Shown: positions 16,286 through 24,688 of the stretch, piece after piece
How the letters are laid out: each line of letters starts with the position of its first letter
Numbering within the stretch: the stretch's first letter is position 1
IMG/VR virus record: IMGVR_UViG_3300036768_000200
Coordinates: 1-27,300 of that record
Strand: one strand, 5' to 3'
DNA from: a virus
DNA: 27,300 bases
Position numbers and translations under genes: made by a program
Notes under the pieces: generated by a model
What the model saw: only the letters and a program-made list of their open reading frames with translations
What the model was told of the DNA's origin: nothing
Databases searched by the model: none

Positions 16286-16322
16286 GCGCGTCCTTAATGC
16301 GCGTTGTTTAGGGATGCGCCCA
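16286..16322. repeat. 37-bp palindromic repeat, copy A
   Basis: Identical to 24616-24652 over 37 bases, flanked by different sequence. The arms GCGCGTCC and GGATGCGC pair around the core, giving an imperfect hairpin with TTAATGCGCG near the loop. A related hairpin is at 16594-16624. It looks like a REP-type extragenic palindrome. Copy A lies upstream of V, copy B upstream of terminase. Confidence 0.8.
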
Positions 16323-16695: not shown

Positions 16696-17418
16696 TTATC
16701 CCCGGTTGGCTTTCATTTGGCGGAACGTGTGGGCATAGATCATGCTCGTGGAATGACTCACCTTGCTGGCTAGAGTCGTTGGCACTGGCACAGTCATCGG
16801 CAATGGAGCGTAGTTGTTCTGGATGCTGCGGCTTAACGCTTCGCCGAATATTTTTGATAGGGCAACCACGGAATCACACACATCAATCCAGTCATCCATC
16901 GGGATGGTGATGGAGTCTGGAAGCTGTGGTCTGCCATCAACCATCAGCGGCTGCCCTGCCCCGCCATAGTACGGCTGCGAAGTCACCCCATAGTCACCCA
17001 TCCAGACCAACGCCTTGCCCGTGTTATCCAGCACGCTCTTGTGGATCATGATGAACTCAGGGTCAACGCGGGGTTGCTTGGCGCGACGTTCGCACTCGAT
17101 GAAATACCGCCGTGCTTCCCTGCCCTTGTCGTTCTTCTCGACCATCGCGAGTTCCTTCGCCATTTCCAACGTCAGGAAGTAGTCAATGGAGCGACGATCA
17201 CCACCCCGCCCTTTTTTGATTCCCCCGTTTTGGTGAATCAATACGAAGTCATAACCTTCAGAAAAACCATACTCGGCAATGCGGTCTTTCACCCAAGTTG
17301 CGAAGTCACGCCCAACCTGCAAAAAGTTGTGTAAGTCGCGGGCATTCACGCACTGTTCTTGTGTGCCAGAAACGGTATGGGAAGTTATGCGGATGATGCT
17401 ATTATCTTGCGTAGTCAT
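16696..17418 (-). CDS. AntA/AntB family phage antirepressor
   Basis: A 240-aa protein. Residues 20-92 form the AntA/AntB domain: CVNARDLHNFLQVGRDFATWVKDRI, EYGFSEGYDFVL, then IDYFLTLEMAKELAMVEKNDKGREARRYFIECE. In P1-like and other phages these proteins bind the lytic repressor and favour induction. The C-terminal half (about 115-240) is not recognised. It is likely monocistronic, with its own leader hairpin, divergent promoter and terminator. The start has AGAGGT nine bases upstream. In P2 no antirepressor lies among the structural genes, so it is an accessory gene here. Confidence 0.88.
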   Translation of the reverse strand: MTTQDNSIIRITSHTVSGTQEQCVNARDLHNFLQVGRDFATWVKDRIAEYGFSEGYDFVLIHQNGGIKKGRGGDRRSIDYFLTLEMAKELAMVEKNDKGREARRYFIECERRAKQPRVDPEFIMIHKSVLDNTGKALVWMGDYGVTSQPYYGGAGQPLMVDGRPQLPDSITIPMDDWIDVCDSVVALSKIFGEALSRSIQNNYAPLPMTVPVPTTLASKVSHSTSMIYAHTFRQMKANRG

Positions 17419-17555: not shown

Positions 17556-17828
17556 ATGCCAAAAATTCAATTCAATATGCGGATTGAGCAAGACCTTAAA
17601 ATGGGCTTGGAAGAATCTGCAAAATCACAGAACCGGACAGCAAGCAACCTTGTTGAGTGGCTGATCAAGCAATACCTTGAGCAGCTTGCTAAGCGCAGCG
17701 CACCCTCACCTGATGCGTTTGATGCGAAGATTGCAGCGGATGCGGAGGCGGGAAAGCTGGATTTCTTGCTGGAAGAAGCCAAAAACGAGTATGACGCTGG
17801 CAAACTGAAGGGATGCGGGAATGTATGA
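17556..17828 (+). CDS. Ribbon-helix-helix antitoxin / autorepressor
   Basis: A 90-aa protein. Residues 1-45 form an Arc/CopG-type ribbon-helix-helix (PKIQFNMRIEQDLKMGLEESAKSQNRTASNLVEWLIKQYL), with the strand used for DNA contact and two helices. The C-terminal part (about 68-87) is AGKLDFLLEEAKNEYDAGKLKG, like the toxin-wrapping tail of RelB/ParD-type antitoxins. It is the first gene after the palindromic operator, and the toxin start lies 8 nt inside its end. It is likely both repressor and toxin inhibitor. Confidence 0.85.
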   Translation: MPKIQFNMRIEQDLKMGLEESAKSQNRTASNLVEWLIKQYLEQLAKRSAPSPDAFDAKIAADAEAGKLDFLLEEAKNEYDAGKLKGCGNV

Positions 17829-18111
17829 TATTGAGGTAACGGAAGTATTTCAGACGTGGTTCAACGACCTGCCCCGCACGGTGGCTTTCCGTATCACTTC
17901 CCGCATTGACCGCGTGAGGGATGGGAATTTCGGCGATGCAAAGCGGCTGGATGAGTCCCTGTCAGAATTACGCTTCTTTTTCGGGTCAGGTTATCGGATT
18001 TATTACACCATCAGGGGTGGTGCGGTGGTCTTGCTATTGGCTGGCGGCGACAAGTCCAGCCAAGCGAAGGACATCAAGAAAGCACGAACCCTGTTAACTG
18101 AGTTGGAGTGA
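17821..18111 (+). CDS. RelE/ParE superfamily toxin (HigB / 'addiction module killer' type)
   Basis: A 96-aa protein with the usual length and pattern of the family: EVFQTWFNDLPRTVAFRITSRIDRV, then a RIYYTIRGGAVVLLLAGGDKSSQAKDIKKAR C-terminal core. The GGDKSSQ-DI-KA segment is diagnostic of the HI1419-like killer subfamily, normally paired with an HI1420-like antidote encoded downstream. Such toxins cut mRNA on the ribosome. It overlaps the upstream antitoxin by 8 nt and its TGA touches the start of the next gene. Here it is flanked by antitoxin-like genes on both sides. Confidence 0.9.
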   Translation: MYDIEVTEVFQTWFNDLPRTVAFRITSRIDRVRDGNFGDAKRLDESLSELRFFFGSGYRIYYTIRGGAVVLLLAGGDKSSQAKDIKKARTLLTELE

Positions 18112-18116
18112 TGAGT

Positions 18117-18365
18117 ATGGCTATCAAAACAAAACCGTTTGACGTGTCTGCACACCTGCAAACGGATGAGGATATTCGGGAATTCCTCAACATCATGCTG
18201 GAAGAAAACGGCACAGAAGGCTTTGAACGTGCTTTGGCGTATGTTGCCACTGCCAAAGGCATGACTGACATTGTGCGGCTAGATACCCGCCCCTTGTCGC
18301 TGGAGACGATTGATAAGGCAGTGCATTCCCTTGGCTTGCGCCTGTCAGTGCAAATGGCGGCATGA
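18117..18365 (+). CDS. HigA-like antidote protein lacking most of its helix-turn-helix
   Basis: An 82-aa protein from the ATG at 18117, which has GGAG eight bases upstream. An ATG at 18111 overlapping the toxin stop is the alternative. It begins like HI1420-type antidotes (IKTKPFDVSAHLQTDEDIREFLNIMLEENG, ALAYVATAKGMTDI) and ends like them (LETIDKAVHSLGLRLSV). Between these the usual 20-25 residues of the helix-turn-helix (pattern IA-ETGLSRESLYKALS-GNP) are replaced by the short VRLDTRPLS. Normal members are about 95-100 aa. DNA binding is probably lost while toxin binding may remain. Confidence 0.8.
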   Translation: MAIKTKPFDVSAHLQTDEDIREFLNIMLEENGTEGFERALAYVATAKGMTDIVRLDTRPLSLETIDKAVHSLGLRLSVQMAA

Positions 18366-18404: not shown

Positions 18405-19508
18405 TCACTGGGTGTACTCGTGGTACTGGGCGATGGCGCTCTTGCTCTGGTTCTTGTCGATCACGTACTTTTCATCTGGAACTTTTCCGTCTTTCAGCCA
18501 CTTTTCCAAGGATTTTTCTGTCAGGTGATAACCAATGGAATTCCCGTTTCCATCCATATTCTTCACTTCCAGAGGGTCTAGCGATGAAATAACCTGTAAA
18601 TTCCTACCCTGTCCACCGTGGAATGTATCGCCTTCTTCAAAGGCATATTCCCTTGGGTTTGATATGGCAAAACTTCCGTACTGAATCAACTTGCTAAGGC
18701 GTTCTTTACGGAGCTTATCAAATTCTGGGTATTTGGGGTGGTCAGCAATTTTCGGTGACTTTCCGTGCTGCTGCTTGTATTGATCACAATACACCTTATT
18801 CTTGTTTTGTGTTCTGAATGGCTCAAGAAGAACATTAAGCTCACTGTATCTTGGATTTTCCTTCTCCCATGCCTTCCGTAACTTCATAGTTGGCTCTGGG
18901 TCGGTAAAATACTTCCACTGGATGCCAAACGCTGACCAATGCGCTTTTTTAACAGCGTAAGACCACGCGGCAAACTCTGCCGTAGCTTCGTCTTCCGTGA
19001 TTGGTATCCAATCAGCCGATTTTTCCTTGGAAACATAACCATCTGGCAATATGCCATCATTAATAAATTCGTAAAACTGGTCAGTCGTGATGATGGAAAC
19101 CTTTTTGTTTTCAGCATCTTCCATTGCTTTCCCACAGAGACCGTCGCCAACACACAAGAAATCGAGCTTTGAACTGACACTATATCTGACGCGCATAGTG
19201 TTCTCCCTAGCCAAACTTTCGAGTCCTTCACGATCGTCAGCCCTGAAGCCTTTGAAACAGATGTCGAATAACTGGTCTTCGTCAAGCTCCAGAGGTTTTC
19301 GTTGCTGAGCTGCTTTCGGTATGGGAATGTCGGCAAATCCATTAAGAGCAGACTCGTCTGAAATATGCTGAACAATCCTATCTTTACGGAAAGTTCTCAT
19401 TCCACCTGAATATTCACAATATCCCCTGATATATGCTTTATCTTCCTTGAAGTTGGTCAACTTCCGCAGCGTCTCTTGACCGGAACTATCACGATAAACA
19501 AACAACAT
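18405..19508 (-). CDS. WYL-like / BRCT domain fusion protein, accessory gene
   Basis: A 367-aa protein. Residues 1-50 (FVYRDSSGQETLRKL, YIRGYCEYSGGMRTFRKDRI) resemble the WYL-type fold or its C-terminal extension in bacterial regulators. Residues 75-150 fit a BRCT domain (ICFKGFRADDREGLESLA, VRYSVSSKLDFLCVGDG, KKVSIITTDQFYEFI) of the bacterial LigA type, which binds DNA ends or protein partners. Residues 160-367 are not recognised: basic, helical, no clear catalytic motif. The ATG at 19508 is preferred to that at 19520 because GGGGGTGG lies before it. Base composition is more AT-rich than its neighbours, suggesting transfer. It has its own 3' terminator. Possible roles in DNA sensing or defence are inference. 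Confidence 0.7.
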   Translation of the reverse strand: MLFVYRDSSGQETLRKLTNFKEDKAYIRGYCEYSGGMRTFRKDRIVQHISDESALNGFADIPIPKAAQQRKPLELDEDQLFDICFKGFRADDREGLESLARENTMRVRYSVSSKLDFLCVGDGLCGKAMEDAENKKVSIITTDQFYEFINDGILPDGYVSKEKSADWIPITEDEATAEFAAWSYAVKKAHWSAFGIQWKYFTDPEPTMKLRKAWEKENPRYSELNVLLEPFRTQNKNKVYCDQYKQQHGKSPKIADHPKYPEFDKLRKERLSKLIQYGSFAISNPREYAFEEGDTFHGGQGRNLQVISSLDPLEVKNMDGNGNSIGYHLTEKSLEKWLKDGKVPDEKYVIDKNQSKSAIAQYHEYTQ

Positions 19509-19582
19509 AGCCACCCCCATGACAGAAAATATTCAATAAGCTGATTGAATGGTTATTTTCTATCAGTGTCAAGGGTGGAAAC

Positions 19583-19978
19583 TTACCCAACCTGCGATAG
19601 GATCAAGCCGACCACACCAACGGCGGTGCTGATGGCATCGTTGTGGATGGCGGAAACAATCCGTTCCCCCAGCGTTTGCTTGTACTCAAGGCTTTCCGGG
19701 CTGGACTTGAGCGCGGCAAGTCCTTTGGCGGTCAGCACCACGCCCGAAGCGTGGCATTGCCCAAACGTCACCACCTTCACATACCCCTCATTGTGTAACC
19801 AGCGTAACGAATGGATGCAGAGGTTGGCTTCACGGGTCACGTTCCCGTAGTCGTCAATTTGTGACGCACCCATCAGGGTCATGCAATCGACACTGACCGC
19901 CAACGGGAACGCGCCGTAGAGCTGGGCAAACACCCGTGCGGTGATTTCATCGAATAGCTGCATGTTGGTTTTGTCCAT
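19583..19978 (-). CDS. Hypothetical phage protein with possible winged helix
   Basis: A 131-aa protein of unknown function. Residues 5-95 look like a winged-helix fold: several helices, then LRWLHNEGYVKVV and GVVLTAKGLAALKSSPESL, a wing-like ending common in phage and regulator proteins. The C-terminal helix (ERIVSAIHNDAISTAVGVVGLILSQVG) is amphipathic to hydrophobic. AGGAG lies seven bases before the start. It is downstream of S in the same direction, possibly the last gene of the head-completion operon. Confidence 0.6.
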   Translation of the reverse strand: MDKTNMQLFDEITARVFAQLYGAFPLAVSVDCMTLMGASQIDDYGNVTREANLCIHSLRWLHNEGYVKVVTFGQCHASGVVLTAKGLAALKSSPESLEYKQTLGERIVSAIHNDAISTAVGVVGLILSQVG

Positions 19979-20016: not shown

Positions 20017-20445
20017 TTATGCTTGTGCCGACAGATACCGTTGTAGGATGCTCTCAATCGCTGGCACGTCATCGGGTTCAAACTGCACGAGTTCGCGGGA
20101 GGGGTATTTGATGCCGTTCTCGCTTGCGCCGTGGTCGTGGATGGTGGCAAGCCGTGCGGCATGACCATAAATACCCACTTCCGCCTTGTCTGGCGTGGAC
20201 TTGGCTCTGATGTGACGTTTGAACCCCAGTAACATTTTTCGCTTGGGAATAAAGCGTTTGGATTTACCGTTCTTCAAGATCTTAAAGCGCGGTTTTCTTG
20301 GGGCATACGCTGTGCCATCGGCGTTTTTCTGTTGACTGACCCGCTGGCGATTGCGCTTGAGTAAATAGTTGGAGATTTCCCGCATGGCTCGCTTACGGGT
20401 GGCGGGTTTCAAAAAGCTAAACTGCTGTTTCAGCCATTCATTCAT
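20017..20445 (-). CDS. S: Tail completion protein S (phage virion morphogenesis family)
   Basis: A 142-aa protein of the P2 gpS / virion-morphogenesis family, needed to complete tails so that they join heads. Family features: RKRAMREISNYLLKRNRQRVSQQKNADGTAYAPRK, the GIYGHAARLATIHDHG segment and YPSRELVQFEPDD near the C-terminus. Very basic in its first half. It overlaps R by 8 nt. Confidence 0.9.
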   Translation of the reverse strand: MNEWLKQQFSFLKPATRKRAMREISNYLLKRNRQRVSQQKNADGTAYAPRKPRFKILKNGKSKRFIPKRKMLLGFKRHIRAKSTPDKAEVGIYGHAARLATIHDHGASENGIKYPSRELVQFEPDDVPAIESILQRYLSAQA

Positions 20446-20911
20446 CCAGCGCGTCCTGCATCAAGGTTTCTTCGCCGCTGCGGGCATCGTGCAGCCACAC
20501 GGGTACATCAGCGTACAGCGGGTCAAGCAGCACCGAGGGCTGGATACAGGTGGTGACTTCGCCATCCTTGAGCAGGGTTTTTTCCGTGACCTGCAAGCCA
20601 AACCAGACATTGGTGGTTTCAGTATTGAGGTTGTCGGCTTCCCAACCGAAGGCGGTTTTGCCGCGCTCTGGCTGGTAGACGTTCATCCACCACAACAGGG
20701 CGAACTTGACCTTGCGCAGGTCACGGGTCTTGATCGGGAAATTCTGGATGTAGCCGTTGATCTGGTACTTGTCGAGGTAAGCCAGATTCGGGCTACCGTC
20801 GTACACGGGTGGGGCTTCGACTTCGCCCTCTTCCACCCACACGTCCAGCTCTTCTTCGGTCAGCAAGCCGGATTTGATCAGGTAATTGTAGAGGTGTTGC
20901 GCTTTGTTCAT
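20438..20911 (-). CDS. R: Tail completion protein R (P2 gpR-like)
   Basis: A 157-aa protein in the R position between L and S. Family features include the N-terminal NKAQHLYNYLIKSG helix, YDGSPNLAYLDKYQINGYIQNFP (P2: L-y-Y-y-lnl-ltDy), then LLWWMNVYQPE and a C-terminal LLKDGEVTTCIQPSVLLDPLYADVPVWLHD. It starts inside the L stop codon (ATGA). The product helps finish the tail before head joining. Confidence 0.87.
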   Translation of the reverse strand: MNKAQHLYNYLIKSGLLTEEELDVWVEEGEVEAPPVYDGSPNLAYLDKYQINGYIQNFPIKTRDLRKVKFALLWWMNVYQPERGKTAFGWEADNLNTETTNVWFGLQVTEKTLLKDGEVTTCIQPSVLLDPLYADVPVWLHDARSGEETLMQDALDE

Positions 20912-21432
20912 ATCAGCTCAATCGTGCAGCGGGGCTTGCCCAGCAATTGGCGCACGGCTTCACGGCTTTCCTGATCATAATCGTCTGCGGTCAGTTCCAA
21001 GTCATCAGCACGGTCATGCCCTAAGCGGGTAGTCTGGGTGTCGCGGTAGCGTTCAACCAGCCGCGCTTTGGCGTGGGCATAAACCGCCGTGCGGTACTGC
21101 ATGACCTTCTCGTTGCAGTCACCGTAATGGTTGGCTGGCACGGTTTCGAGGCTAAAAAAGCCGTTACGGACTTGTTGGCAAACCCAGTTCGTGCCCTCTT
21201 CCATCGCGCTATCGTCCAGCAGTTCGCGGTTGATGCGCGTCATCGCTTGTTGCAGGGCTTGGATTTGGCGGTCTTCCCCCGCGCCGTTATCGACACGGTA
21301 ACGGGACTGGAAGTCACGTAGGGCAATATCAGGGAAAAATTCCATATTGGGCAACATCACCTGTCCGGTGTTGTCCTGCCCTTTTTGGGCAACCGTGGAA
21401 AACGGCGGGGTAAGGTCAGCTTCCGTGACCAT
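20908..21432 (-). CDS. L: Head completion protein L (P2 gpL-like)
   Basis: A 174-aa protein of the P2 gpL family, which closes the filled head and forms the tail attachment site. The motif FFPDIALRDFQSRYRVDNGAGEDRQIQALQQAMTRINREL fits the family pattern (FPDI-p-dfR-amR-dGtVt--RL--A---A---VN-EL). The frame is open to a TTG at 21438, but the ATG at 21432 is taken as start. The Shine-Dalgarno is weak, and initiation probably depends on coupling with the 32-aa ORF that overlaps its start by 17 nt. Confidence 0.9.
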   Translation of the reverse strand: MVTEADLTPPFSTVAQKGQDNTGQVMLPNMEFFPDIALRDFQSRYRVDNGAGEDRQIQALQQAMTRINRELLDDSAMEEGTNWVCQQVRNGFFSLETVPANHYGDCNEKVMQYRTAVYAHAKARLVERYRDTQTTRLGHDRADDLELTADDYDQESREAVRQLLGKPRCTIELI

Positions 21433-21514
21433 AGGCAACCAGTAGGCAAATCACCAAAAACAGTAACGCAATCCAATGATTGATAATGAATCGCCCCACA
21501 AAATCAATGATCAT
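21416..21514 (-). CDS. 32-aa membrane peptide overlapping the holin and L
   Basis: MIIDFVGRFIINHWIALLFLVICLLVAYGHGS: one hydrophobic helix (about residues 13-28) preceded by a short polar start. GGGGAG lies seven bases before the ATG. The ATG overlaps the holin stop (ATGA), and the end overlaps the start of L by 17 nt. Such nested coupling is typical of real phage genes. It could be a holin partner or antiholin. No family is recognised. Confidence 0.6.
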   Translation of the reverse strand: MIIDFVGRFIINHWIALLFLVICLLVAYGHGS

Positions 21515-21798
21515 GTTTTGCTCCCCAAGTATTTGTTCAGGACTTTTTCAAGCCCTTGTTCACCAATGGAAGCCAGTACGCAGGCCACCCCAACAATTAC
21601 CACCGGGTCTGTATCTGCTGGCATCCAAACCAATCCGATAAAAGCCGCCATTGCCAAGGCTGCGGTGACGATGGCCCGCCCGACGATCAGCCGCCATGTC
21701 AACACTTCGGGTGACAGTAGCAGCTTGGCTATGCCGATTGCTGCGCCAATGGCTGCAACAATGAAGCCGAAGACCATCATTTCGTTATCGTTTTTCAT
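21511..21798 (-). CDS. Putative holin
   Basis: A 95-aa protein with three hydrophobic segments (about 8-27, 40-60 and 66-80) and a charged C-terminus (EQGLEKVLNKYLGSKT). It resembles LydA/HP1-type phage holins. AAGGA lies before the start. It sits between terminase small subunit M and head completion L, close to where P2 has holin Y. It begins right after the structured terminator 21812-21887, so it may be expressed by read-through or a separate signal. The matching endolysin is at the far left end of the window. Confidence 0.75.
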   Translation of the reverse strand: MKNDNEMMVFGFIVAAIGAAIGIAKLLLSPEVLTWRLIVGRAIVTAALAMAAFIGLVWMPADTDPVVIVGVACVLASIGEQGLEKVLNKYLGSKT

Positions 21799-21811
21799 GC
21801 CCTGTCCTTAT

Positions 21812-21887
21812 AAAAAAACAGCGTCGTCCGTCACGAGAGGGCAGTAAGGCAAGGAGAGAACCCCTGCCGTCAGTGACGGGGACGCTG
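21812..21887 (-). terminator. Large structured terminator between M and the holin
   Basis: On the - strand CAGCGTCCCCGTCAC (21873-21887) pairs with GTGACGGACGACGCTG (21819-21834), about 13 bp with a small internal loop. The intervening 38 nt also hold a GGCAG/CTGCC stem. Seven T follow (21812-21818). It is an intrinsic terminator or an attenuator inside the late operon. Confidence 0.7.
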
Positions 21888-21901
21888 AGTGCTGGTGGCA
21901 G

Positions 21902-22606
21902 CTATTGACTGCTGCTTTCAGCAGAAACTACGGGTGCAGATGCTTCTGGCATTTGCTTTTCAATGTTTTTGATCAAGGTTGCCACACCGGAGCGGGCATC
22001 CATCGCGTAGACCTTTTTCAGCAAGGCAACTGCCTTGGCAGGGTCGGTGTCTTTGACCGCCAGACCACACGCTTTAAGCAACTTGACCTTGATGGCATCG
22101 TGCATATCGAACGGCGACACGAGGTCATACAGTTGCTGGAGCATGGCGGCATGGTCAGCCGTTGTTTTGCTGACGGTTTCGGTATCGCCCTTGAGCAGGT
22201 CGTTGCAGATGTATTCCGCCAGCAGCCCCGGCACATCGTTTTGGAAACGTTCCGGCATTTTCAAGCCGTGCCGGATAGCGTATTCGCCAATGTCCAACGC
22301 CTTGACGTAATCAGCCACGTCGATGTGCCACACGAGGTTGTAGAGCAGTACGTCGTCAGGTTGCCCCGCATCCGCTGCCAAGACCCCGGCAATGTAGTCG
22401 GCGTATTCGGGCAGAAGCTGGGTGCGCTTGAGTTCCACTTTGGCTTCCGTTGCCTTGATCATTTTCAGGCGGCGCAGGTCAATACGCAGCTTGCCCAGCA
22501 TCAGTTTGTGCTGGTTAGTCTCGGTGATGGATACCCCAGTGGCACTGGCACGCGCGGCTTCTTTGGCGGCCCGTTGCTGACTGTAGGATTTGGCGCAAAT
22601 GCTCAT
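21902..22606 (-). CDS. M: Terminase small subunit M (P2 gpM-like)
   Basis: A 234-aa homologue of P2 gpM, which recognises cos DNA for packaging with gpP. Family features: the N-terminal helical, basic part (HKLMLGKLRIDLRRLKMIKATEAKVELKRTQLLPEYADYIAGVL), QPDDVLLYNLVWHIDVADYVKALDIGEYAIRHGLKMP in the middle, and a TPR-like end (DPAKAVALLKKVYAMDARSGVATLIKNIEK). AAGGAG lies six bases before the start. Confidence 0.93.
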   Translation of the reverse strand: MSICAKSYSQQRAAKEAARASATGVSITETNQHKLMLGKLRIDLRRLKMIKATEAKVELKRTQLLPEYADYIAGVLAADAGQPDDVLLYNLVWHIDVADYVKALDIGEYAIRHGLKMPERFQNDVPGLLAEYICNDLLKGDTETVSKTTADHAAMLQQLYDLVSPFDMHDAIKVKLLKACGLAVKDTDPAKAVALLKKVYAMDARSGVATLIKNIEKQMPEASAPVVSAESSSQ

Positions 22607-22615
22607 GCCGACTCC

Positions 22616-23653
22616 TTACCACTTGCCCAGCACGATGTTTTGGCTCTTGGCATAACAAATCATGCCGTAATCCTCAACCACGTAGGCTTCGTTTATGCTG
22701 ATGTAGTTTTCCACGCGGTCACGTTTGGCGTTGTCCACGATGGTGCGGCGCAAAGTATTTTCCTGCGAGTAAATCGACAGGTTATCCAAGCGCGTGATCA
22801 TGATGCCTTTTGAGGGGAAAAATGGTACGCGCACCGCAGGCATTCCACCGACTTTCTTGTTGGCTAGGATAATATCCATCGCGTTGCGTTCGGTGGGCTG
22901 ACCGTAGCTGTTCACCAAGTCAAAGAACTTGTCGTTGAAGATTTCACGCCCGATCACGCACACCAGCCCGGTGTCTTCCTGATACCACTCTTCGATCAAG
23001 TTGTTGATCATGTCCATGGCCAGCGCGTCGATATTGAGGTAATCGCCACCTTCACCAATGCGGATTTCACCCGGTGCTTTATCGCCTTCAGTCAGGATGC
23101 GCTCTGGCGCTTTGGTTTCCAGATGTTTCAGCCAGCCAACATTGACATCTTGCAGCAGCGGGTTAGCGGTGCGGTCGGAATTAGCCACGCGGCTTTCGCC
23201 GTTCCAGCCAATCATCAAACGGTCACGCGCCATTTGCTGGACGATATGGGTGCTGATGCGTGATTCAAAATCATCAAACTTCGCCCACATATTCAGTTTC
23301 TGGTAACGGATATGGGTGTCGAAGTTGGTTTGTTCGCAACGGTAGCGGTCAACCAGATTCATATCGGTCGGGTCTTGGGTATCACGATCCTTAACCAGCG
23401 TGTCAGTGGTGCTGGCGATGGTGGTGGTGATGTCCATACCCAGCTTTTCACCTTCTTGCTCTGGGACGGTGTGCAAATTGATGCGGCTCAAAAAACCCGC
23501 GTCTTCGTGCATGATGCTTTCCAGTTCCTGATGGATGCTGGGAGCTACCGAAAACTTGAAGCTGCTGAAGTTCAAGCCGCGTGTGGAGACGTTGTTCTTT
23601 TCCGCAACCCCTTCAAGGTAGGCTTGGTATAAATCGCGTGTTTCGTTTCTCAT
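22616..23653 (-). CDS. N: Major capsid protein N (P2 gpN-like)
   Basis: A 345-aa HK97-fold capsid protein. Family features: the N-terminal region (RDLYQAYLEGVAEKNNV), FLSRINLHTVPEQEGEKLGMDI, YRCEQTNFDTHIRYQKLNMWAKFDDFESRI, MIGWNGESRVANSD (family: R-miGfnG), NPLLQDVNVGWLKHL, then GMPAVRVPFFPSKGIMITRLDNLSIY. P2 gpN is 357 aa and is cut near residue 31 during maturation. Here the cut would remove the first 30 or so residues. It lies between scaffold O and M. Confidence 0.96.
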   Translation of the reverse strand: MRNETRDLYQAYLEGVAEKNNVSTRGLNFSSFKFSVAPSIHQELESIMHEDAGFLSRINLHTVPEQEGEKLGMDITTTIASTTDTLVKDRDTQDPTDMNLVDRYRCEQTNFDTHIRYQKLNMWAKFDDFESRISTHIVQQMARDRLMIGWNGESRVANSDRTANPLLQDVNVGWLKHLETKAPERILTEGDKAPGEIRIGEGGDYLNIDALAMDMINNLIEEWYQEDTGLVCVIGREIFNDKFFDLVNSYGQPTERNAMDIILANKKVGGMPAVRVPFFPSKGIMITRLDNLSIYSQENTLRRTIVDNAKRDRVENYISINEAYVVEDYGMICYAKSQNIVLGKW

Positions 23654-23664
23654 TGTTGTTTTCC

Positions 23665-24483
23665 TTAGAAAAAGCCTTTCTTCTTGCCGGATTCGCCACC
23701 TTCACTGCCGCCTGCGGCTTTGGGTGCTGGCTTATTGGTGGAGTGTTTTTCTACGTCCTTGCGGAACGCTTGCAGTTCTTTCAGGCTGGCTTCCAGTTGG
23801 GTAAATTTGCCCGATAGGTCTTTGTGTTCCTGTTGCAGCTTGCGGTAGTTGCCTTGGGTGGTGTCCAGCTCTTGCGCCAGCAGTTCCATTGATTTTTCGT
23901 GTTCGCTGAAACGGCTGTCGTTGGTGGTTTCGTGCTTGCTGAACATCTTTTTCAAGCGGCTGAACAAGCCTTCACGCTGCGTGGTGTCGTCTTCGTCGTC
24001 TTCGAGCTTTAACTCGGTTTCCAAGTATTCGGAGAATAGCTTGCCTTGCAGTTCGGCAAAGTTGTTTTTTTGGCTGAATGCCAGCATTTGTGTGCCTTGG
24101 GACGCGGGGCTGTCGGTGACTGCCAATCCGGTGAGGTAGGCTTTGCCCGTACCAGCGTAGTCGGGGTCGATTTCTACCGAGGTGAACACCTTTTGGCGTT
24201 GCTGGTTCATTTTCAGCAATTGGTCGGTGGGTTGCAGTTCCGCGTAAAGCCCCAGCCGTTTCTTGCCATCGACTTCCACTTCTTCGGTTTTCAGGGAGAT
24301 GACATCACCCAACGCGGGGAATGCGCCGTCAGAAAACAGGCTGCGGAAGTGTTCCAGCCAGATACGCGCCCCGTGCTTTTTGTCGGGGTCGTATTGTTCC
24401 GCCATTTGCTGGATTTGCTTGCGGGAGATGGTGCGCCCGTCGATGGTCGCGCCTTCAAGGGCAATTCGTGTGTATTTGGGCAT
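23665..24483 (-). CDS. O: Capsid scaffolding protein / protease O (P2 gpO-like)
   Basis: A 272-aa protein. The N-terminal domain is the herpes-like serine protease of P2 gpO. By position, D15 (TIDGRTI), H45 (WLEHFRS) and S102 (VFTSVEI) fit the P2 triad D19/H48/S107. Residues about 170-245 form a long coiled-coil scaffold (KSMELLAQELDTTQGNYRKLQQEHKDLSGK), followed by a Lys/Gly tail that contacts the capsid. The protein guides shell assembly and then cuts N, O and others. AGGA precedes the ATG. It diverges from P across a 205-nt spacer. Confidence 0.93.
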   Translation of the reverse strand: MPKYTRIALEGATIDGRTISRKQIQQMAEQYDPDKKHGARIWLEHFRSLFSDGAFPALGDVISLKTEEVEVDGKKRLGLYAELQPTDQLLKMNQQRQKVFTSVEIDPDYAGTGKAYLTGLAVTDSPASQGTQMLAFSQKNNFAELQGKLFSEYLETELKLEDDEDDTTQREGLFSRLKKMFSKHETTNDSRFSEHEKSMELLAQELDTTQGNYRKLQQEHKDLSGKFTQLEASLKELQAFRKDVEKHSTNKPAPKAAGGSEGGESGKKKGFF

Positions 24484-24688
24484 TTGTAATTCCTAGGGTA
24501 AGGGTCGTCACCACATTACCAACCCATTCGGATCAATGAGCGGGTCAACTGGACTTTTCTGGCTCACGCCATACTGTTCAACACTTTCTAAGGGATTGCC
24601 GCTGCGCTCAATAGTGCGCGTCCTTAATGCGCGTTGTTTAGGGATGCGCCCACCCGCCTTGTGTCCCCCGCCCCTTTATCCTACCTGC
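24484..24688. promoter_or_regulatory. Divergent O/P intergenic region
   Basis: In P2 the Ogr-activated late promoters for P-Q and O-N-M lie here. I see no strong sigma-70 promoter. Late promoters that need an activator often lack a -35, so this fits. TGTTCAACA (24575-24583) is the only short palindrome, and repeat copy B (24616-24652) lies nearer P. Confidence 0.4.
24616..24652. repeat. 37-bp palindromic repeat, copy B
   Basis: Identical to 16286-16322 (copy A). It lies 36 nt upstream of the terminase start. The two copies have the same orientation relative to the window and so opposite orientation relative to the downstream operon. Confidence 0.8.

Follow-up and report, generated by a model that had tools for sequence, protein, structure and literature searches.

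PafBC and DriD are WYL proteins that act as DNA-damage regulators activated by single-stranded DNA (ssDNA). Binding of ssDNA is abolished in the PafBC variants PafB R211A/R214A, R181A, R181A/R204A/R208A, and Y196A (PMC11804915). For the BRCT fold, work cited in PMC9293004 shows that the isolated BRCT domain of RFC1 tightly binds DNA with a recessed 5'-phosphate, but intact RFC depends little on this. Fusions of a WYL and a BRCT domain were already named in 2014 by Makarova et al. (PMC4012209). The cI-int interval has been described as an anti-phage hotspot of the P2-related (K139-like) prophages of Vibrionaceae in a study whose main text makes no mention of BRCT or WYL genes (PMC9122126). WYL-BRCT genes themselves are common in P2-like prophages, where annotations call them ‘DNA ligase’ or ‘hypothetical’ and no role has been assigned to them. 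Searches of the open-licence literature gave no report of a WYL-BRCT protein acting against phages.

We analyzed a 27.3-kb stretch of viral DNA, here called the window (positions 1 to 27,300 of IMG/VR record IMGVR_UViG_3300036768_000200), which belongs to a P2-like phage as judged from its P2-type capsid, terminase, gpR, gpS, and gpV genes. The capsid shares at most about 51% identity with that of any GenBank phage, and no nucleotide relative was found among GenBank phages. The gene under study, P0001, is an intact open reading frame from ATG 19508 to the stop codon at 18405 (Table 1). This ATG is preceded by GGGGGTGG; translation could also begin farther upstream, at ATG 19520, which lacks a Shine-Dalgarno sequence. 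Residues 2-156 of the product match phrog_2561 (E=3e-27), and the protein also matches phrog_36782 (E=3e-16). Close homologues of the whole protein were found in neither viral nor genome contigs, close homologues of its C-terminal third alone were not found in viral contigs, and the relatives in phages and plasmids are limited to the WYL-BRCT part.

Table 1. Features in and around the WYL-BRCT gene of the P2-like phage, in window coordinates.
Feature	Position	Strand	Basis or remark
WYL-BRCT-CTD protein, 367 aa (P0001)	18405..19508	-	open frame; phrog_2561 and phrog_36782 matches
WYL domain, residues 1-58	19335..19508	-	Pfam, family profile, model, residue conservation
BRCT domain, RFC1/LigA class, residues 81-156	19041..19268	-	family profile, Foldseek, column counts
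C-terminal domain (CTD), residues 160-367, putative divergent member of a newly recognized domain family	18408..19031	-	L011/L092 link
Helical insertion in the CTD, residues 206-283	18660..18893	-	low-confidence model; L092 alignment
Terminator-like hairpin 3' of the stop codon	18373..18397	-	10-bp stem and T tract
AT-rich palindrome just 5' of the start codon, candidate operator	19520..19565	-	fold z = -4.7 vs shuffles
41-bp element with TTGACA (19572-19567)	19549..19589	-	88% match in L226 just before different cargo
phrog_2266 protein, upstream neighbor	19583..19978	-	E=5e-27
Toxin-antitoxin cluster, convergent to P0001	17556..18365	+	three genes
RHH antitoxin-like	17556-17828	+	toxin-antitoxin cluster
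Gp49/RelE-like toxin	17821-18111	+	toxin-antitoxin cluster
HI1420-type antidote	18108-18365	+	toxin-antitoxin cluster
AntA-type antirepressor	16696..17418	-	Pfam AntA 9e-27; beyond the toxin-antitoxin cluster

A first, sequence-only reading of the window had proposed an N-terminal WYL-like segment followed by a LigA-type BRCT domain in an accessory protein. With the single sequence as query, both Pfam matches are below threshold (WYL, PF13280, E=0.0028 and 18.1 bits against a cut-off of 21.8; BRCT, PF00533, E=0.014), so the domain claim needed better evidence. This evidence came from family profiles and structural models, and both the domains and the accessory gene are real. A PDB search with the profile of the family's WYL part gave PafBC as first match (E=6e-5), and residues 1-58 are modeled by AlphaFold with a pLDDT of about 95 as five strands in an Sm-like order. 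Residues R38, R41, and R44 align with R208, R211, and R214 of PafB and with R198, R201, and R204 of PafC, while Y26 aligns with the ssDNA-binding Y196 of PafB. These basic groove residues and the tyrosine are all retained in the present copy; of 46 relatives, all have R44 and 45 carry R or K at position 41. The WYL domain is thus predicted from its residues to bind ssDNA. Pfam detected no HTH, winged or other, in the protein, the WYL domain of which begins at residue 2.

The family's BRCT profile matches RFC1 (7.5e-9) and bacterial LigA (7e-8) in the PDB. Residues 81-156 are also modeled with a pLDDT of about 95, and the top Foldseek matches of this model are BRCT domains with a probability of 1.00. 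The family signature is TGF...NAGPxK, with T86 and K128 retained in 45, N123 and G125 in 44, and the proline in 41 of the 46 relatives. The present copy does not conform to it: here alone T86 has become K and NAGPxK has become GLCGKA, and the protein forms the longest branch of the family tree (1.56 changes per column). The altered signature makes DNA-end binding by this copy doubtful, and the ability may have been lost. Weak similarity to two other proteins, GapS2 (NCBIfam NF047932) and the PADLOC candidate PDC-S48, is confined to the BRCT domain. Membership in either was rejected; the GapS2 match (E=0.1) was seen only with a relative.

The same reading described the last 200 residues as belonging to no known family. 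Searches with residues 160-367 indeed came up empty in Pfam, PHROGs, NCBIfam, PADLOC, and PDB sequences, but the description needs correction: putative relatives of this CTD recur as fusions to WYL-BRCT, alone beside BRCT genes, or together with SWIM zinc fingers. For the present protein the assignment hangs on one intermediate sequence, represented by L011 and L092, which are the same locus and protein, the L092 copy sitting in a betaproteobacterial genome. BLAST of the full protein against L011 covers residues 1-301 (E=5e-25), and the CTD of L092 matches the canonical CTD profile with a probability of 96% (E=1.5e-9). Compared directly with the canonical profile, our CTD scores above 4,000 shuffles, but with E-values of only 0.0016-0.024, the former obtained after adding L011, and direct hhalign with the canonical CTD gives 15%. 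The canonical motif reads LIAxFxDGYAxGWxFAV...ALDIK...WTQG...F..GD...Q.EF..LLQ.G. The hallmarks sought were W.F.V..A.DI, WTQG, F..GD, and, at the C-terminus, a strand and a helix that ends in G; the present copy has W-Y-V..AFGI, Y.FEEGD, and the C-terminal helix, and WTQG is absent. According to the alignment, L092 carries an insertion similar to the helical one of the present copy. We regard this CTD as a divergent, not proven, member of the family.

Structure prediction of this region was proposed as a check at the outset. The AlphaFold model of the present CTD is of low confidence, whereas the canonical CTD is modeled at a pLDDT of 86.9. With the latter as query, Foldseek matched no solved fold in the PDB (best probability about 0.1) and a single viral protein in BFVD, A0A6J5S2L6 (E=2e-7). 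No catalytic motif was recognized in the CTD, and no description of the domain or its partners was found in the open-licence literature.

In Serratia rubidaea and in the viral-contig groups L094, L194-L198, and L202-L210, WYL-BRCT is followed by the canonical CTD in the same protein. Seven further loci encode it without a fused WYL-BRCT, and in four of these the partner is a SWIM zinc finger, either adjoining (L222, L223, and L212, the last called from a CxC...CxH pattern only) or fused (L224, where a convergent WYL-BRCT gene lies beside the SWIM-CTD fusion). In L221, a BRCT protein directly follows the CTD gene (Pfam 1.4e-9). The CTD gene of L219 is preceded by a gene for a tentative BRCT protein, which outscores every shuffled sequence when compared with the BRCT profile, yet with E=0.19 and no Pfam match. 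The L220 partner appears WYL-like by eye; its WYL profile score is not separable from shuffles and it was not counted. In the family tree, about five changes are needed to account for the CTD-bearing proteins, at least two of them forced by well-supported branches, so the WYL-BRCT and CTD combination was repeatedly gained or lost. Two further observations concern related loci. L115 (7353-7940) and L219 (7506-8162) encode a related pair of proteins of about 200-218 aa, each directly before a CTD-bearing gene, with a predicted helical N-terminus and, by eye, a BRCT-like C-terminus. In L199, L200, L201, and L007 (about 3950-5160 in L007), WYL and BRCT-CTD lie in two overlapping frames, which in this E. 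coli-related lineage possibly reflects a shared frameshift or programmed recoding.

The WYL-BRCT core occurs in over 100 viral-contig loci and in 173 of 5,426 E. coli genomes (3%). The BRCT domain, presented earlier as a rarity outside bacterial ligases and repair proteins, is real here, and the WYL-BRCT core is a widespread prophage family rather than an oddity. Genomic neighbors were surveyed in 41 non-redundant loci. The genes upstream include HTH_3 (16), CI HTH (12), and S24 (11) proteins, categories that overlap, so that such repressors precede at least 16 of the 41 genes. The distance to the repressor-type gene is mostly 3-50 bp, and in some loci the downstream gene overlaps (-4 bp). Downstream, integrases (7), PifA/PDC-S20-like KAP ATPases (4), and Septu PtuA (2) were found, PtuB being checked next to PtuA in L033; a GHKL ATPase follows in L110. 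The order in L085 is CI, WYL-BRCT-CTD, OLD (on the opposite strand), and integrase. The survey thus places repressors, integrases, and some defense genes beside the family, while known defense genes are a minority of the downstream neighbors. Separately, a PifA/PDC-S20-like KAP ATPase gene directly follows WYL-BRCT in L020 (4604-6061) and L087 (6496-7833); with a 4-bp overlap in L020, the two genes form a possible two-gene defense unit.

In the window, the gene is a prophage cargo (moron) gene. As stated in the sequence-only reading, it is more AT-rich than the other phage genes (44.2% GC against 54.9 +/- 2.2%, z = -4.9), and its proposed phage-borne status is borne out by a sister phage, L226. 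This phage is 98.9% identical over window positions 20021-24650 and then has different genes right after gpS, including RHH genes and a 146-aa protein without recognized family (L226 4780-6152); by eye, a Rha-like antirepressor is also present in this cargo. The phrog_2266 gene is likewise missing at this place in L226, where the similarity breaks at 20021, and has no relatives in viral contigs. A gap of 74 bp upstream of P0001 holds the TTGACA element and the strong palindrome, and a terminator-like hairpin lies downstream, in a scan in which hairpins overall are no richer than in shuffles. Together, these predicted signals make monocistronic transcription plausible. No LexA box (CTG-N10-CAG) was seen by eye upstream of the gene. 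The neighboring toxin-antitoxin cluster was correctly recognized, and all three of its genes were identified (Table 1). A perfect 35-bp direct repeat (GCGCGTCCTTAATGCGCGTTGTTTAGGGATGCGCC) was also observed at 16286-16320, near the gpV region, and at 24616-24650, within the start of the terminase gene, exactly where the L226 contig starts.

Our preferred reading, which we hold tentatively, is that this cargo protein of a P2-like temperate phage recognizes abnormal DNA structures and serves superinfection immunity or defense, the defensive part being a matter of genomic association. The earlier proposal of a defense or host-interaction gene fares accordingly: the neighborhood of KAP/PifA-like, Septu PtuAB, and OLD genes and the CI-integrase placing agree with it by association. 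The occurrence of relatives beside both phage repressors and anti-phage systems points to a protein that is probably a sensor in phage-phage conflicts. The WYL barrel would bind ssDNA that becomes accessible when phages replicate or DNA is damaged, and the BRCT domain would attach either to the neighboring duplex end or to a partner protein. Such binding could then alter the state of the CTD, which would act as effector or as adaptor to a separate effector.

The best-surviving alternative, somewhat unlikely in our judgment, is lysogeny control, in which an ssDNA or DNA-damage sensor encoded by an immunity-module gene, here relocated near AntA, would adjust CI or integrase and thereby the timing of induction. 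It would explain the short distance to CI-type genes, the dominance of CI/HTH/S24 families upstream, the 4-bp overlap with integrase in L204 and L207, and the AntA gene beyond the toxin-antitoxin cluster, and it agrees with the DNA-damage regulation by PafBC and DriD. The conserved coupling to the CI/integrase operon suits this role as well as it suits defense. However, the protein has no HTH or other sequence-reading domain, the gene follows ogr at the other end of the prophage in P2-like phages of E. coli and lies in the late region here, and L226 does without it at this site. Distinctly less probable is an accessory of DNA end protection, repair, or recombination that aids the phage's own genome. 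An RFC1/LigA-type BRCT next to ssDNA-binding WYL residues would suit such a role, but nuclease, ligase, and ATPase domains are absent, the BRCT signature is altered in this copy, and the distribution is that of an accessory gene, with L226 managing without it at this site.

Slightly more improbable still is a decaying or neutral passenger acquired in the cargo site. The long branch and the lost BRCT signature residues speak for decay; against it, the frame is open, the WYL signature is fully retained, both N-terminal domains are modeled with confident folds, and the gene has its own terminator-like hairpin and palindrome. That the family is a DNA ligase, as phrog_2561, phage records NC_049342 and NC_008201, and other GenBank entries name it, can practically be dismissed, because its LigA-type BRCT is the only ligase part, adenylation, OB, and HhH domains being absent from the protein and the relatives scanned, NCBIfam LigA models align only near their own C-terminal BRCT and far below cut-off, and in the genomes searched the phrog_2561 model also picks up a second ORF of LigA size; at the sequence level the label is a misnomer.

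Returning to the preferred reading of a DNA-sensing immunity or defense protein, a wider version is possible, though less likely than not: the CTD would be a new domain of unprecedented fold, an effector or adaptor shared by exchangeable nucleic-acid sensors (WYL-BRCT, BRCT, SWIM), together forming a previously undescribed modular anti-phage or prophage-alarm system at repressor-linked hotspots. The evidence makes ssDNA sensing via the PafBC arginines testable, as well as a role in prophage defense or induction control, and the same holds for the repeated pairing of a previously unrecognized domain without known fold with several domains that bind nucleic acids. Should the defense reading be true, many prophages would gain a DNA-structure sensor from the WYL-BRCT family.

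Compared with described systems, the protein shares the Sm-like WYL fold and the arginine triplet with PafBC and DriD (PMC11804915; PMC6789036), but it has neither a winged HTH nor a WCX extension, contains one WYL domain instead of two, and carries a BRCT domain in their place. Among solved structures, the family's BRCT is closest to the BRCT domains of RFC1 and LigA but, unlike these, is attached to neither a clamp loader nor a ligase. The fusions of Makarova et al., phrog_2561, and phrog_36782 have the same order, WYL followed by a LigA-type BRCT; PMC4012209 merely names the fusion, and the CTD and the SWIM/BRCT partners are absent from it. The gene order in L085 resembles the cI-int hotspot of Vibrionaceae prophages, while the window gene, unlike that hotspot, is placed between the gpS and gpV regions (PMC9122126). 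The finding of WYL-BRCT genes at three distinct cargo positions speaks for an accessory gene that moves on its own.
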